Of a DNA stretch of 64,000 nucleotides, positions 351-49,005 are shown in pieces. The notes under the pieces were generated by a model. That model ran no database searches, was not told the DNA's origin, and worked only from the letters and a program-made list of their open reading frames with translations. Origin of the DNA: Beijerinckiaceae bacterium (GTDB lineage: Bacteria > Pseudomonadota > Alphaproteobacteria > Rhizobiales > Beijerinckiaceae); contig CANGBC010000001.1 in assembly GCA_947452005.1 (NCBI GenBank), forward strand, positions 124,001-188,000, in the 5' to 3' direction. Position numbers and translations under genes: made by a program. The stretch's first letter is position 1, and each line of letters opens with the position of its first letter.

Positions 351-366
351 TGTTTCACGTGAAACA
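351..366. promoter_or_regulatory. parS centromere-like site (ParB binding)
   Basis: The sequence TGTTTCACGTGAAACA is a perfect 16-bp palindrome identical to the canonical chromosomal parS consensus. It lies in the gap between mnmE and mnmG, close to the predicted origin at 4.7-5.1 kb, where bacterial parS sites cluster. ParB would load here for origin segregation; parAB itself is not in the window but usually follows mnmG-rsmG. Confidence 0.93.
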
Positions 367-1756: not shown

Positions 1757-3025
1757 TCAGGTGTTCATAGACTCGAAGAAGCTCGCATTGCCCTTCGGCG
1801 TTTCGCGAAGTTTCCCGAGCAAGAATTCAATCGCGTCCACAGTCCCCATCGGATTGAGGATACGACGCAGCACATACATCTTCTTGAGTATGTCTGCCGG
1901 CACCAGCAGATCTTCTTTGCGTGTGCCAGAGCGCGTGATGTCCAGCGCCGGGAACGTCCGCTTATCGGCGACCTTACGATCAAGAATAATTTCGGAGTTA
2001 CCCGTGCCCTTGAATTCTTCAAAGATCACTTCGTCCATACGTGAGCCCGTATCGATCAAAGCGGTAGCAATAATCGTCAGCGAGCCGCCTTCCTCGATGT
2101 TACGCGCCGCGCCGAAAAAGCGCTTGGGACGCTGCAGAGCATTCGCATCCACACCGCCCGTCAACACCTTTCCGGATGACGGCACAACGGTGTTGTAAGC
2201 GCGTCCAAGACGCGTAATCGAATCCAGCAAGATGACAACGTCACGACCATGCTCGACCAACCGCTTGGCCTTTTCGATCACCATTTCGGCAACCTGGACG
2301 TGCCGCACAGCCGGTTCATCGAAGGTTGAAGAAACCACCTCACCCTTCACAGACCGCTGCATATCAGTCACTTCTTCAGGCCGTTCATCGATCAACAGAA
2401 CGATAAGATAGCATTCTGGATGGTTCGCGGTGACTGATTGCGCGATGTTTTGCAGCAGAACGGTCTTACCAGTACGAGGAGGCGCAACGATCAACGCGCG
2501 CTGACCCTTACCAATCGGCGAAACAATATCGATAATGCGAGACGACAAATCCTTGCGCGTCGGATCATCAATTTCGAGCTTCAAACGCTGATCCGGGTAG
2601 AGCGGTGTCAGGTTATCGAAGTGCACCTTGTGACGCACTTTTTCCGGATCTTCAAAATTGATCGTGTTGACCTTGAGAAGAGCAAAATACCGCTCGCCCT
2701 CTTTGGGGCTGCGGATCAAACCTTCGACCGTGTCACCTGTCCGCAAGCCAAACCGCCGAATTTGCGATGGCGAAACGTAAATATCATCCGGCCCGGCCAA
2801 ATAATTTGCGTCCGGAGACCGCAAGAAACCAAAGCCATCAAGGAGTACTTCGACAACCCCTTCTCCGATGATCTCAATATCTCGGCTGGCCAACTGCTTC
2901 AGGATCGCAAACATCAATTCCTGTTTGCGCATGATGGAAGCGTTTTCGACCTCGTGCTCCTCCGCAAAAGCGAGGAGTTCCGTCGCCGATTTACGCTTGA
3001 GATCCTGAAGTTTGATTTCCCGCAT
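1757..3025 (-). CDS. rho: transcription termination factor Rho
   Basis: Hexameric RNA helicase that ends transcription at Rho-dependent sites. The 422-residue protein has an N-terminal helical Rho_N domain (1-45), a cold-shock-like RNA-binding domain with RNP1 (DGFGFLRSP, about 63-71) and a RecA-like motor. The motor has Walker A APPRTGKT (181-188) and Walker B VVILLD (253-258). It lies upstream of mnmE with a 69-bp gap. The 197-bp leader before it holds a small terminator-like hairpin, so autogenous attenuation is possible, as known for rho in other bacteria. Confidence 0.98.
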
Positions 3026-3039
3026 GGGAGCTAGTCCTT

Positions 3040-3065
3040 AAAAAGTCCCGCGCTGAGAGAGCGGG
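3040..3065 (-). terminator. terminator-like hairpin in the rho leader (possible attenuator)
   Basis: On the minus strand CCCGC and GCGGG (3065-3061 and 3051-3047) can form a short 5-bp stem with a 9-nt loop, followed closely by a run of five T (3044-3040), 14 bp before the rho start codon. This could end transcription before rho. The stem is short, so this is weak evidence. Confidence 0.3.
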
Positions 3066-3222
3066 CCGAAGAGATCGTTTGGGAGGGCAGCTGAACAGGC
3101 GGGGAAGAGAACCCAAGGCCTATCGCAAAGCGCGCCTTTTAGGAGGGACCACACAGGTAACTTAAAACATCTGGGTGATCAAGCGACGGCGACACAGATG
3201 CTCGCCGCCCAACAATCCAGCG

Positions 3223-3651
3223 TCAGCTGAACGGCTTCAAAATAACCAAGCCGACAATCAGGATCATCAAGACAGTTGGGACTTCGTTCAGAATACGAAA
3301 GAACCGTCCGCTCCGCTTATTGATCCCAGCGGCAAAATCCTTTCGTAACCGTCCAAGAAAACCATGGGCTCCTGACATCAGGATCACGAGGATAACCTTG
3401 CTGATAAACCAAGGCTCGATCCAAAAGACTGAAATTGTCGCCAAATAAAGACCTGTCAGCCAGGCGACAACGAGCGCCGGGGTCATAATATAGCGATAGA
3501 GCCGGAATTCCATGACCTCAAAAAGCTTTCCAGGCTCCGACTGAGGTAGAACACCAGCGTGATAGACAAACAGCCGCGGCAGATAGAGGAGGCCGGCCAT
3601 CCAGGAAATCACAGCCAAAATATGAAGCGTTTTGACCCAAAGGTAGATCAT
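3223..3651 (-). CDS. hemJ: protoporphyrinogen IX oxidase HemJ
   Basis: Membrane protein of about 142 residues with four predicted hydrophobic helices. It oxidises protoporphyrinogen IX to protoporphyrin IX late in heme synthesis, replacing HemG/HemY in most alphaproteobacteria. Family features include an early conserved His in the first helix (VKTLHILAVISWMAGLLYLPRL), the HGFLGRLRKDFA stretch in the middle and a C-terminal hydrophobic helix. Its ATG overlaps the hemE stop by one base (TAATG), so hemE and hemJ are translationally coupled; both act in the same pathway. Confidence 0.93.
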   Translation of the reverse strand: MIYLWVKTLHILAVISWMAGLLYLPRLFVYHAGVLPQSEPGKLFEVMEFRLYRYIMTPALVVAWLTGLYLATISVFWIEPWFISKVILVILMSGAHGFLGRLRKDFAAGINKRSGRFFRILNEVPTVLMILIVGLVILKPFS

Positions 3652-4691
3652 TACCCGCCTCTGACCCGCGCGACCATTTGCTCAACATGAGCAATCGGGG
3701 TCTCTGGTGTGATGCCGTGACCTAAGTTGAAAATATATGGCCTCCCAGAAAACGCAGCCTTGATCCGGTCCACATTTTCATCCAGAGCTCGGCCACCCGC
3801 GATCAACGCAAGCGGATCGAGATTGCCCTGAACCGTTTTTTTCGGCTGGATCGTCTTGGCAACCCAAGACAGATCAGCAGATGTGTCAAGGCCGATTGCG
3901 TTAATGCCAGGATGGCTCGTAAACGCCTCCAGATGCGACCCAACGCCTCTAGGGAACGCGATAACCCGGGCGTGAGGCACACGAGCCTTAAGTCCCTCTG
4001 TGATCGCGAGGATGGGTTTCAGACACCATCTCTCAAATTCAATAACCGGAAGAACCCCTGCCCAGGAATCAAAGATCTGCACTGATTCCACACCAGCCTG
4101 AAACTGGTGCTCCAAATAATCAATCGACGCAGTCACCAAAATATCGATAAGATTCTGAAATAAAACAGGATTTTGGTAAGCAAAGAGACGCGCGGGCTTT
4201 TGATCTGGGGTGCCACGCCCGGCAATCATATAACTCGCAACCGTCCACGGTGCGCCACAAAAGCCAATTAGCGAGGTCTCTGACGGGAGCGCCGTTTTCA
4301 GCCTATCGATTGTCTCAAAAACAGGTCCGAGCCGCTCCAGATCAATTTTATCTCGTAAAGCCGCCAATCCGGCTGCATCCTCAATAGGCGGTAAACGCGG
4401 ACCCTCGCCCTGCTCAAAGCTCACCTTTTGACCCAGAGCGTCCGGAACCACCAAAATATCACTAAAAAGGATCGCCGCATCAAAGCCAAAACGACGAATG
4501 GGCTGAAGCGTTGCTTCGGTCGCGAGCTTTGGGGAATAGCAAAAATCGAGAAAGGTTGGGACGCTTGCTCTGATCTCGCGATATTCAGGAAGATAACGGC
4601 CCGCCTGACGCATCATCCAAAGTGGCGGGATCGGGCTCGAATGACCATCGAGAGCTTGAACGAAGAGCTTGTTTTCCGGTTTATGCGACAC
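3651..4691 (-). CDS. hemE: uroporphyrinogen decarboxylase HemE
   Basis: Decarboxylates uroporphyrinogen III to coproporphyrinogen III. I chose the GTG at 4691, giving 346 residues, the usual family length. An AAGGGA sequence lies a few bases upstream, and the N-terminal signature WMMRQAGRYLPEYRE then sits at 25-39 as in other HemE. The frame stays open to ATG 4787, but those 32 extra codons would encode a lysine-rich stretch that is really the AT-rich tract of the predicted origin. GFCGAPWT and NLGHGI are further family motifs. hemE beside the origin is a conserved alphaproteobacterial arrangement. Confidence 0.96.
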   Translation of the reverse strand: MSHKPENKLFVQALDGHSSPIPPLWMMRQAGRYLPEYREIRASVPTFLDFCYSPKLATEATLQPIRRFGFDAAILFSDILVVPDALGQKVSFEQGEGPRLPPIEDAAGLAALRDKIDLERLGPVFETIDRLKTALPSETSLIGFCGAPWTVASYMIAGRGTPDQKPARLFAYQNPVLFQNLIDILVTASIDYLEHQFQAGVESVQIFDSWAGVLPVIEFERWCLKPILAITEGLKARVPHARVIAFPRGVGSHLEAFTSHPGINAIGLDTSADLSWVAKTIQPKKTVQGNLDPLALIAGGRALDENVDRIKAAFSGRPYIFNLGHGITPETPIAHVEQMVARVRGG

Positions 4692-4722
4692 GATCCGCCT
4701 ATCCCTTAAAAAAACCTTCAAA

Positions 4723-4743
4723 GATCTTTTGATCTTTTTCTTC
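4723..4743 (+). repeat. 13-mer-like repeats in the predicted DNA unwinding element
   Basis: GATCTTTTGATCT (4723-4735) and GATCTTTTTCTTC (4731-4743) each match the E. coli 13-mer consensus GATCTNTTNTTTT at 11 of 13 positions and overlap by five bases. They sit in the AT-rich part of the origin, 57 bp before the best DnaA box, the same order as in E. coli oriC. The role as the unwinding element is inferred. Confidence 0.6.
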
Positions 4744-4788
4744 TTCTTATTAGACCCCTGATTACCGTGGCACCAGAGAGTGAACAAG

Positions 4789-4808
4789 TTAAGCCTTCGT
4801 TATCCACC
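4789..4808 (+). promoter_or_regulatory. overlapping CtrA half-box pair and DnaA box in oriC
   Basis: TTAA-N7-TTAT (4789-4803) differs by one base from the CtrA consensus TTAA-N7-TTAA. Its right half is the start of the DnaA box TTATCCACC (4800-4808). Such overlap would let CtrA block DnaA, the logic known from Caulobacter. Confidence 0.55.
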
Positions 4809-4850
4809 TGTCCCCACAGATCACCATACTTCATGGAACCTGTGGATGGG

Positions 4851-4865
4851 TTAATAAAAGTTTAA
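4851..4865 (+). promoter_or_regulatory. CtrA box (TTAA-N7-TTAA) in oriC
   Basis: TTAATAAAAGTTTAA matches the CtrA full-site consensus exactly. It follows the minus-strand DnaA-like box at 4841-4849 by one base. CtrA binding at oriC represses replication in Caulobacter; the same role here is inferred. Confidence 0.6.
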
Positions 4866-5094
4866 CGATAACAAAGCATCAAGCCCCAAACACTCCGGGC
4901 AAGTGCACATCTTGTTATGGGTATTCACTTTGCCCCCGGTCACGCTGGCTTTATAGCCCCCAATGTCTTTAATGTTAATTGAAATCGGGGTTAGCGTGGC
5001 TTGGCAACCCGCGACCTGCTCCCGAAGCCCCCTTTTTCCGACTTAGTCCCCAATCATACAGGCTTTGTGGACAGGCCAAACGCATGGATCGAAT

Positions 5095-5928
5095 GTGGGA
5101 CGTAATTATTTTCATCTCCACTTGGTCTCTGATGCCACCGGCGAAACGTTGATCGCGGTGAGCCGTGCCGTCACGGCGCAGTTTCAGGGTGTGTCGTCTA
5201 TTGAACACGTCTACCCTCTCCTGAGGACACGCGCTCAACTTGATCGAGCGATAGCAGAGATCGAATCCGCTCCTGGGATTGTCCTCTTTACTTTGGTCGA
5301 TCCTGAATTGACGAGCGTACTGGTCAATTCCTGCCGAGAATGTGGCAGTCCCTGCCTGTCTGTTTTGGAACCCATCTTCGGAATGTTTCAATCTTATTTG
5401 GGCACAGCACAGACATCGCGGCCCGGCGCACAGCACATGCTCAATGCAGAATATTTCAGGCGAATTGATGCGCTGAATTTCACCATGATGCATGACGACG
5501 GGCAACAGGTCGAAAATCTTGAAGAAGCGGATGTCTTATTGCTCGGCGTTAGCCGAACATCCAAGACCCCCACCAGTATTTATCTCGCAAACCGCGGCAT
5601 CAAGACGGCCAATATCCCGCTGGTGCCTGGCGTGTCATTGCCACCTTTTGTTGAGAAGTTGAAACGGCCACTCATCGTCGGCCTCATCGCCTCACCGGAA
5701 CGAATCGTGCAGATCCGCCAGAACCGATTGCTTGCACTAAACGCCGACCAAGAAAGCCCTTACGTTGATCGCACAGCCGTGGCCGCAGAAATCGCTCATT
5801 CCAAAAGACTTTTTGCGGAACGCGGATGGTCAATGATTGACGTGACGCGTCGCTCGATTGAGGAAACAGCAGCTGCCATCCTCGATCTCTACAAAGAGCA
5901 TCGTATGAAATTTATTGCGGAGGGTTGA
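5095..5928 (+). CDS. pyruvate, phosphate dikinase regulatory protein (bifunctional kinase/phosphorylase, DUF299)
   Basis: Proteins of this family reversibly phosphorylate PPDK or PEP synthase at a threonine, using ADP to inactivate and phosphate to reactivate. The 277-residue product starts here at GTG 5095, so that it begins close to the conserved YFHLHLVSDATGETL (5-19). A TTG at 5065 would add ten residues lying in an origin DnaA-like box. The P-loop-like GVSRTSKT is at 151-158, followed by YLANRG. It is the first gene right of the origin, where this gene (the 'RP001' position) is conserved, and it is followed 4 bp later by maf. Confidence 0.92.
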   Translation: MGRNYFHLHLVSDATGETLIAVSRAVTAQFQGVSSIEHVYPLLRTRAQLDRAIAEIESAPGIVLFTLVDPELTSVLVNSCRECGSPCLSVLEPIFGMFQSYLGTAQTSRPGAQHMLNAEYFRRIDALNFTMMHDDGQQVENLEEADVLLLGVSRTSKTPTSIYLANRGIKTANIPLVPGVSLPPFVEKLKRPLIVGLIASPERIVQIRQNRLLALNADQESPYVDRTAVAAEIAHSKRLFAERGWSMIDVTRRSIEETAAAILDLYKEHRMKFIAEG

Positions 5929-5932
5929 TGTC

Positions 5933-6556
5933 ATGACGCTCAGCTCACTCTGGCAGGATAAAGATCCCCTCATACTGGCATCTACGAGCGTGACACGGCT
6001 CAAGCTCCTTCAGGACATCTTTATCCCGGTTGACCCTGTCGGGCCCGATATCAATGAACGGGGCATTGAAGAAATTCTTCAGGCTGAAAACACACACCCA
6101 GCGCAAATTGCATTGGCACTCGCCGATGCGAAGGCAAGGGAAGTAGCTAAAAATAACGCGGGTAGATGGATCGTTGCAGCTGACCAAACTCTGGCTCTGG
6201 GCGCGGAGCAATTTCACAAGCCCAATTCGATTGAACAAGCCGGCGCGCAACTGAAAAAGTTGCGCGGCCAAACGCATCAGCTCCACTCGGCTTTTGTCTG
6301 TTATCGGGGCGAAGAACGACGCTTTGCGCACGTTGAGACCGCGCAACTGACGATGCGCGAGTTTAGTGACACATTCCTGACGTCTTATCTGAACGCCGCC
6401 GGGTCACGCGTGACGCACAGTGTTGGTGCGTACCAAATCGAGGGCCTAGGCATCCATCTCTTTGAGAAAATTGAAGGTAATCACAGCACGATCCTCGGAC
6501 TTCCCTTAATCCCACTCCTCGCGTTTTTACGCGACGCTGGCTTGGTCGAGGCCTGA
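5933..6556 (+). CDS. maf: Maf-family nucleotide pyrophosphatase
   Basis: Maf proteins hydrolyse non-canonical or canonical nucleoside triphosphates to monophosphates and pyrophosphate. The start ATG 5933 is preceded by GGAGGG with 8-bp spacing; an in-frame TTG at 5915 would overlap ppsR. The 207-residue protein has the N-terminal signature LASTSVTRLKLL (15-26), slightly off the usual ASxSxxRRxLL. A central AADQTL and the later YQIEGLG stretch are typical. In many Rhizobiales aroE follows maf; here coaE starts 6 bp after the stop. Confidence 0.9.
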   Translation: MTLSSLWQDKDPLILASTSVTRLKLLQDIFIPVDPVGPDINERGIEEILQAENTHPAQIALALADAKAREVAKNNAGRWIVAADQTLALGAEQFHKPNSIEQAGAQLKKLRGQTHQLHSAFVCYRGEERRFAHVETAQLTMREFSDTFLTSYLNAAGSRVTHSVGAYQIEGLGIHLFEKIEGNHSTILGLPLIPLLAFLRDAGLVEA

Positions 6557-6562
6557 ACCGAT

Positions 6563-7141
6563 ATGCGAAAGATTGGGCTCACAGGTTCTATTGGAATGGG
6601 TAAATCGGCCACCGCGGCCATTTTCAAAGAGTTTGGCGTTCCGGTGCATGATTCGGATCTCGCAGTTCACGAGATTTATGCGAGCCCTGAAGCCGCGCCA
6701 ATTCTCGCGGCTTTCCCTTCAGCGGCAGGAAATGGCGGGGCCGACCGTAAAAAGCTCGCTGAAATTGTCCTGAACGATCCCGCTGCTATGAAGCAACTCG
6801 AGGCGATCGTTCACCCACTCGTTTCCGCGCATCGACAGGCTTTTCTTGAGCGGGCTCGCCAAAAAGGTGCGCGTTTTGCTGTCTGTGATGTCCCGTTGCT
6901 TTTCGAAACCAGACTCGACCGCGACATGGACGTTGTTTTGGTCGTTTCAGCCCCTTTTGCCGTGCAAAAGGCCCGGGTGTTGCAGCGACCTGGAATGACG
7001 CAAGCAAAGTTTGATGCCATTCTGGCGAAACAGATTCCCGACGAGGACAAACGTCGACGCGCGCATCTGGTGGTGGATACGTCAAATGGCTTTGAGGATA
7101 CCCGCCGTCAGATTGACCGATTCTTGCGTACGCTCGTCTGA
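6563..7141 (+). CDS. coaE: dephospho-CoA kinase
   Basis: Phosphorylates the ribose 3'-hydroxyl of dephospho-CoA, the last step of coenzyme A synthesis. The 192-residue P-loop kinase begins with GLTGSIGMGKS, whose P-loop is at 8-15. The HPLV (about 88-91) and DVPLLFE (about 109-115) motifs are typical. It follows maf by 6 bp and precedes dnaQ by 25 bp, so the four rightward genes after the origin form one operon. Two other CoA enzymes, coaA and coaBC, are in this window. Confidence 0.96.
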   Translation: MRKIGLTGSIGMGKSATAAIFKEFGVPVHDSDLAVHEIYASPEAAPILAAFPSAAGNGGADRKKLAEIVLNDPAAMKQLEAIVHPLVSAHRQAFLERARQKGARFAVCDVPLLFETRLDRDMDVVLVVSAPFAVQKARVLQRPGMTQAKFDAILAKQIPDEDKRRRAHLVVDTSNGFEDTRRQIDRFLRTLV

Positions 7142-8872: not shown

Positions 8873-8996
8873 GTCCCCGTTAGCTTGGCTTTAATCGCCG
8901 ATGGCAAACTGCAAATGCCATCCTATCTGATATATATATGGGTGGGTTCCGGTGAATGACAGAGCCGGATCAGCATCAGGCTGGATGAAAAGATCA

Positions 8997-47484: not shown

Positions 47485-49005
47485 ATGCTTAAGCCACGTC
47501 TCGATTCCGTTCATGCCTCGCGCGCTGCGGACAATTCTGACGCTACCGTTGCCATGGATTATTCCGAGGCTTGGCAACGCGTATGCCGTCGTCTTCGCGC
47601 CGAACTGGGTGAAGATGTTTTCAATTCTTGGTTCGGCCGTCTCGAGCTCGACGAAGTGCATGACGATGTCGCGCGCTTGTCAGTGCCCACGAAATTTTTG
47701 AAGAGCTGGATCCAGTCGCACTATACGGATCGCATTCTGGCGACCGTTTCGGCTGAAATGCCTGGCATCGTCTCGTTGGTCGTGTCTGTGCGCACATCAG
47801 GGCGTGTCGTCGCCCAGCGCGCGGTTGAGCCAGCCACCCTGCGCGCTGATGAGGCTGCGCCTCGCAGCACAGCCAGCCTTTTCGCCCCGCCGAGCGCTCT
47901 TTCAGCCCGACGCGATGCCGACACCGCGCACCGCGACGCCAAGCATGGCGAAAGCGAGGCCTTGGGTGGCTCGCCTCTGGATCGCCGCCTGACCTTTTCG
48001 ACCTTCCTGGTTGGCAAATCGAACCAGCTCGCCCATGCCGCCGCCCAGCGCGTGGCGCAGGCACCGGCTTCCGAGCTGCCGATCTACAATCCGCTCTACG
48101 TCCATGCCTCCGTGGGTCTGGGTAAAACCCACCTTATTCAGGCTGTTGCCCATAATGCGACAGAGGCTGGCCGTCGGGTCATCTATCTGACGGCTGAGAA
48201 GTTCATGTACGGTTTCGTTTCCGCGCTGAAGGCGCAGACGGCCATTGCTTTTAAGGAAAAGCTGCGCGCGATTGATGTTCTGGTCATCGATGACGTCCAG
48301 TTCCTCCAGGGCAAGTCGATCCAGCAGGAATTCTGTCACACGCTGAATGCGCTGATTGATGCGGGTCGTCAGGTTGTTATCGCCGCTGATCGTCCGCCAT
48401 CTGATCTGGAGAGCCTTGATGAGCGGGTGCGCTCGCGTTTGGCCGGTGGCCTGTGCGTTGAAATGGGCTCGCTCGACGAAGCCTTGCGCGTGAAAATTCT
48501 GGAAACGCGAATTGCTGCTGCACGGATCTCGCAGCCAACCTTCGAGGTTCCCGCGCCCGTGATCACCTTTGTTGCTCGCTCGATCCAGACCAATGGTCGT
48601 GATCTTGATGGCGCTGTGAATCGCTTGCTTGCACATGTCACTTTGACAGGTGCGCCCCTCTCGGTTGAGACGGCAGAAACCGCTATCCGCGATCTCGTGC
48701 GCACACGCGAACCCAAGCGCGTCAAGATTGAAGACATCCAGAAACTTGTCGCCACGCATTTCAATGTCAGCCGCGCCGATATTTTGTCGTCACGCCGTAC
48801 AGCAACCGTTGTGCGCCCGCGACAGATCGCCATGTATCTGGCGAAAGTGCTCACACTTCGTTCGCTGCCAGAAATTGGGCGTCGCTTTGGTGGCCGTGAT
48901 CACACGACCGTCCTTCATGCCGTGCGCAAGATCGAAGGTCTGGCGAATAATGACGGACAGCTCAATGAAGAGCTCGAACTCCTCAAGCGCATGCTGATGG
49001 ATTGA
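47485..49005 (+). CDS. dnaA: chromosomal replication initiator protein DnaA
   Basis: AAA+ initiator that binds DnaA boxes and opens oriC. ATG 47485 (GAGAAG upstream) gives 506 residues. Domain I starts about 22 ([17 protein letters not shown]), then a linker. Domain III has Walker A with K214 (GLGKTHL) and Walker [10 protein letters not shown]. Domain IV carries the DnaA signature [15 protein letters not shown]. The in-frame ATG 47548 is a possible alternative but has no ribosome site. dnaA lies about 42 kb from the predicted oriC, separation being usual in alphaproteobacteria. Confidence 0.97.

Follow-up and report, generated by a model that had tools for sequence, protein, structure and literature searches.

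A predicted Caulobacter-type chromosomal replication origin between hemE and ppsR in an uncultured Beijerinckiaceae lineage

Where chromosome replication begins in the Beijerinckiaceae lineage represented by this metagenome-assembled genome (MAG) is the question raised by a 403-bp intergenic gap at positions 4692-5094 of the DNA analysed here, flanked by the divergent genes hemE and ppsR. The window, meaning that whole 64-kb stretch, comprises bases 124001-188000 of contig C1 (321,296 bp) in an assembly of 2.03 Mb estimated to be 58% complete. No publication on the replication origin of this genus was found among the literature matches listed. A preliminary description had placed the origin in this gap, a proposal which is supported, at the level of prediction, by the boundary genes, site enrichment in homologous gaps, parB/parS and GC skew. 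We put the probability that the gap represents an oriC (chromosomal replication origin) of Caulobacter type at about 95%, a prediction made from sequence. Gene context, the sites, their conservation and placement, the skew and parS are observed, and the main evidence for the predicted origin is comparative, coming from the homologous gaps of relatives.

The experimentally identified Caulobacter origin lies between hemE and a COG1806 gene, is 404 bp long and holds DnaA, CtrA and IHF sites (PMC1914354). The same source gives seven criteria for oriC, allows that individual genomes may miss some of the elements and uses its own DnaA consensus, TTATNCACA; DnaA sites were judged here by scans for DnaA boxes and TCCACA cores. 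The boundary genes in the window are hemE (uroporphyrinogen decarboxylase, URO-D; 3651..4691, minus strand; PF01208, E 4.3e-109) and ppsR, a DUF299/COG1806 gene (Kinase-PPPase; 5095..5928, plus strand; PF03618, E 2.7e-89), and the orientation flip across the gap that had been described earlier is confirmed. The ppsR start at 5095 is probably GTG, relatives having GTG or TTG at the same place. The length of the gap falls within the 200-1000 bp given for the intergenic region, and its GC content of 46.9%, compared with 56.1% for the window, corresponds to the raised A/T content listed among the criteria. Of the remaining elements, DnaA sites are found across the 79 gaps compared below, the window alone being above chance for TCCACA only, a CtrA site is present, an IHF site is not found, and a GC-skew shift is seen in contig C1 and in the congeneric genome G021, with no shift in G055, which belongs to another family of the order.

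The sites are distributed along the gap in a consistent manner, as judged from an alignment of ten rows, the window and nine relatives, in which loci L070 and L071 fit most poorly. Nearest hemE is an A/T-rich tract at 4708..4752 (35/45 A/T), a candidate unwinding element which carries two GATCTT copies (4723 and 4731), is conserved in the nearest relatives and is matched in A/T richness by only 0.09% of the 45-mers in the 321-kb contig. The DnaA box named in the preliminary description, TTATCCACC, is present at 4800..4808 on the plus strand with one mismatch, and TTRTCCAC occurs at the same place in 7/10 aligned rows. Both weaker boxes claimed there were also recovered on the minus strand, CCATCCACA at 4841..4849 and the ppsR-proximal CTGTCCACA at 5066..5074; each has two mismatches to TTATCCACA and retains a TCCACA core that is kept in 8/10 and 9/10 rows, respectively. 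The first of these abuts the CtrA-type site TTAA-N7-TTAA (TTAATAAAAGTTTAA, 4851..4865), likewise noted before, which is complete in 8/10 rows. A further weak DnaA-box-like element, TAGTCCCCA, lies at 5044..5052 on the plus strand, with GTCCCCA in 6/10 rows. A conserved TTTAATGTTRAT block at 4966..4979, with TGTTRA in 9/10 rows, has an IHF-like core on the opposite strand, yet does not match the IHF consensus used; it is possibly a degenerate IHF site. TGTTGAT on the plus strand occurs in 20/79 homologous gaps, 16 of those copies lying 93-126 bp from the ppsR end, and on the opposite strand in 7.

Comparison with relatives provides the main evidence. A total of 104 loci were matched and the best 80 retained, from which L101 (no upstream match in 5 kb) and L139 (contig end) were dropped, giving 78 relatives' gaps of 318-799 bp plus that of the window. 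With 40 shuffles of each of the 79 gaps, one-mismatch DnaA boxes number 119 against a shuffle mean of 16.7 (max 26) and TCCACA cores 165 against 14.7 (max 22); the 26 full CtrA sites, spread over 25/79 gaps, compare with a mean of 0.4 (max 2). Thinning to 69 less redundant gaps with 200 shuffles left 106 boxes, 142 TCCACA cores and 22 CtrA sites, compared with shuffle means of 15.1, 13.6 and 0.53, respectively. Expressed per kb, the gaps contain 3.46 one-mismatch boxes, 4.79 TCCACA cores and 0.75 full CtrA sites, while 786 kb of DNA flanking these gaps, a rough control because it is mostly coding, contains 0.34, 0.34 and 0. Placement is also constrained: 19 of 25 CtrA sites fall in the fourth or fifth tenth of the gap, A/T content peaks in the first tenth, nearest the upstream gene, and TCCACA is absent from that tenth. 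For GANTC (CcrM) sites, the 79 gaps exceed their shuffles (285 vs 168.2), but the window's own gap has none, and these sites were not used as origin evidence. GcrA was present in 40/41 genomes, including that of the window. This protein belongs to the CtrA circuit.

Could the gap merely be a divergent hemE/ppsR promoter region, in which DnaA and CtrA act as transcription factors while replication begins elsewhere? Divergent genes do require promoters, and dnaA itself is 43 kb distant, its domain (PF00308) lying at 47977-48459 on the plus strand. The loci from which hemE has departed bear directly on this question. Of the genes tested, the one closest before ppsR was hemE at 60 of the 80 retained loci and either hemJ or rho at 18 (L073, L079, L081, L082, L085, L086, L088-L090, L097, L113, L116-L119, L124, L125 and L127); two loci could not be judged. 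The sites are kept in the 18 gaps lacking hemE, which argues against a promoter function alone: one-mismatch DnaA boxes average 1.28 per gap, compared with 1.57 in the 61 others, and a CtrA site is present in 6/18. A whole-genome set, which overlaps the 80-locus set through many identical genome records, gave a ppsR match in 48/61 genomes; among the 30 loci listed there, 29 are relatives, and hemE was absent within the 1.5-kb flank in 10 of these 29.

The fate of hemE was followed by searching seven of these ten genomes, all seven of the same genus, with G021 and G031, in which hemE is in place, as controls. The gene was located on a different contig in six, and the search of genome G015 returned zero matches. 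The neighbours of hemE in G005 are genes for coproporphyrinogen oxidase and a NUDIX protein, one on either side; in G001 a cytochrome c gene adjoins it, with a DXP synthase gene nearby. The photosynthesis cluster of Bradyrhizobium S23321 includes hemE (PMC4036050), and the surroundings of hemE in G005 and G001 recall such clusters.

Strand asymmetry and segregation genes point to the same region. The cumulative GC-skew minimum of contig C1 is at window position 8,927, and a one-break model places the change at window 9,000, with 0/1000 permutations equally strong. In the congener G021, sampled 36 times along a 5.94-Mb contig, skew is positive in 17/17 samples from 4.52 Mb via the contig end to 1.37 Mb and negative in 17/18 samples from 1.5 to 4.5 Mb, the exception being at 4.0 Mb; the sample that holds hemE-ppsR has a skew of 0.0. 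Skew thus turns within 10 kb of hemE-ppsR and once more on the opposite side. A turn of the skew, the check proposed for the whole chromosome in the preliminary description, is seen near the gap in contig C1 and in G021 and is not seen in G055. The exceptional G021 sample, positive where those around it are negative (L055, G021:C1:4000001-4020000), is perhaps an inversion or an island. A parB gene (ParB_N) is found at C1:120595-120876, and perfect copies of the parS-type site GTTTCACGTGAAAC occur in the assembly only at C1:122102, 6.6 kb away from the gap, and at C1:124352 (352..365 of the window), 4.3 kb away. parB and both perfect parS copies are therefore within 9 kb of the gap. The earlier expectation that the window is centred near the start of replication was not borne out, as the predicted origin is ∼4.9 kb from its left edge.

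Several observations weigh against the assignment. With 300 dinucleotide shuffles of the gap, its one-mismatch DnaA box count was equalled in 88, that is, at chance level, a result which the promoter interpretation would accommodate; 38 such boxes occur in the whole 64-kb window. Perfect TTWTCCACA is absent from the gap and found 7 times in 2.03 Mb, fewer than the 16 of the reversed control. On contig C1, 42 of 6418 windows of 403 bp have a total DnaA count at least as high as that of the gap. Among the 79 gaps, 3 have a DnaA count of zero, and the gaps are moreover related to one another, so that their counts are not independent. The IHF consensus WATCAN5WTR has zero matches in the window and is not enriched in the 79 gaps (12 vs 8.7 shuffled). 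The window's own skew is limited to contig C1 because the MAG is 58% complete, and the 95% interval of the break (-10.3 to 30 kb) spans 40 kb. The local skew minimum of G021 is 9 kb off its gap, and G055, with 20 samples, has no minus-to-plus turn at hemE-ppsR, where its skew passes from +0.028 to -0.029. A second, weaker ParB_N match is on contig C14, a third zero-mismatch match to the parS pattern searched is on contig C12, and the 6 parS matches with up to one mismatch do not exceed the 12 of the reversed-pattern control.

These results indicate which sites are informative in the window itself. The box TTATCCACC alone is not unusual, because its class is at chance level in shuffles, and is by itself insufficient to carry the claim of an origin; perfect TTWTCCACA as a sole criterion was likewise dropped. 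Of the same 300 shuffles, 5 equalled the gap in TCCACA, 2 in the CtrA site and 1 in the purine-type trinucleotide run described below. TTAA-N7-TTAA at 4851-4865 is the sole copy in 64 kb, at least one copy arising in 9/100 whole-window shuffles, and the assembly contains 10 copies compared with 19 of the reversed pattern. Among the 403-bp windows of C1, coding and intergenic pooled, a full CtrA site combined with a DnaA count of at least 2 occurs only where the window overlaps the gap. The 7 perfect TTWTCCACA are scattered on five contigs, the search for weaker box clusters having covered C1, and this, together with the nearby skew turn and parS, argues against replication beginning elsewhere. 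We therefore regard a promoter region without origin function as very improbable and favour the predicted origin.

How such an origin might be opened is a separate question. The published BUS pattern consists of a DnaA box with at most 2 mismatches, a spacer of 0-16 bp and then at least 3 NAN trinucleotides (PMC8287927). Within the A/T-rich tract, six DnaA-trio-like NA(A/G) trinucleotides, TAATAAGAAGAAGAAAAA, lie at 4735..4752 on the minus strand, and minus-strand runs of at least 4 occur in 39/79 gaps, compared with a shuffle mean of 11.9 (max 19), and in 31 of these gaps the run lies in the quarter toward hemE. On the plus strand, such runs occur in 10/79 gaps, with a shuffle mean of 7.3 (max 12). 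The literal pattern is found in 43/79 gaps (12.6 on average in shuffles, max 19) and once in the window, where TTATCCACC at 4800-4808 is followed by a 10-bp spacer and GATCACCAT. Combined, these values lend some credit to the proposal that the gap, in addition to serving as oriC, is opened by a BUS module as published and that the strands part at the hemE-side trio run. However, the literal pattern also arises in 53/300 shuffles, which puts its occurrence in the window at chance level, and that occurrence is distinct from the hemE-side run, which has no adjoining box with at most 2 mismatches, the best having four. A box with at most 2 mismatches lies within 16 bp in just 7 of the 39 run-bearing gaps, and the surplus of literal matches may merely mirror the surplus of boxes. 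We consider this mode of opening a possibility but an unlikely one.

A second addition to the origin role would be production of a non-coding RNA similar to CcnA, as made by the Caulobacter origin. The CtrA site in the gap is compatible with this suggestion, but Rfam gave no match up to an E value of 1 across positions 3000-7000, and a consensus fold of the ten rows, on one strand, gave 13 pairs with a covariation term of +1.17 which mostly pair inverted DnaA boxes. In addition, PMC8959179 describes no clearly detected CcnA-like homologue in S. meliloti. An origin RNA was thus dropped, nothing having come from Rfam or from consensus folding of one alignment on one strand, and appears improbable.

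The predicted origin would be expected to function as follows. Within the three quarters of the gap toward ppsR, DnaA-ATP would bind the weak boxes with TCCACA cores and oligomerise toward hemE, opening the A/T-rich tract at 4708-4752, where the helicase would be loaded. When abundant, CtrA~P on TTAA-N7-TTAA at 4851-4865, adjoining the box at 4841-4849, would exclude DnaA, and ParB on parS, 4-7 kb off, would segregate the copied origins. We infer each of these steps, binding of DnaA, CtrA and ParB, strand opening and firing, from the arrangement of sites. If the origin of this genus keeps mostly weak boxes and a hemE-side trio run without a canonical box, opening might proceed through a cooperative degenerate box rather than a Bacillus-type high-affinity anchor, the origin having stayed while hemE was lost, perhaps repeatedly; this is a speculative extension to which we attach low odds.

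Compared with the Caulobacter crescentus origin, Cori, as described in the published account, the gap shares hemE and COG1806/DUF299 boundaries, a length of ∼400 bp, an A/T content above that of the genome and both DnaA and CtrA sites, but differs in having one full CtrA site rather than five, a single DnaA box within one mismatch and, across the window, no match to the IHF consensus. In Caulobacter, parS is nearby and the unwinding tract is on the hemE side of Cori. Methylocystis sp. SC2 is a related methanotroph. Its predicted oriC is similarly away from dnaA, lower in GC than the chromosome and furnished with boxes within one mismatch, and its skew inversion is not clear, as in G055, but it is 1063 bp long (PMC3794950). 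Rickettsia origins have the same hemE/COG1806 boundaries and a comparable length (383-396 bp), but are ∼82% A/T compared with 53% here (PMC1914354).

The wider neighbourhood, by Pfam, comprises mnmE, rho, hemJ (UPF0093) and hemE on the minus strand, followed by ppsR, maf, coaE and a dnaQ-like exonuclease gene on the plus strand and then secB on the minus strand. The four nearest named relatives by ppsR are MAGs labelled Rhizobiales or Beijerinckiaceae, with 95-98% identity. ARAGORN found no tRNA genes across the 64-kb window (1-64000). Outside it, C1:230001-240000 (in L042) has 44.7% GC over 10 kb, the rest of the contig being mostly 54-60%, and is perhaps acquired DNA.

The result is an expected origin in an expected place, ordinary in kind and new for this lineage only. 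With hemE missing in 18/78 judged loci, proximity to hemE is not a safe guide to oriC in this order. Among the loci compared, ppsR is the more constant neighbour, although they were themselves collected via ppsR. Placing the predicted origin in an uncultured Beijerinckiaceae lineage would help growth estimates from read coverage.
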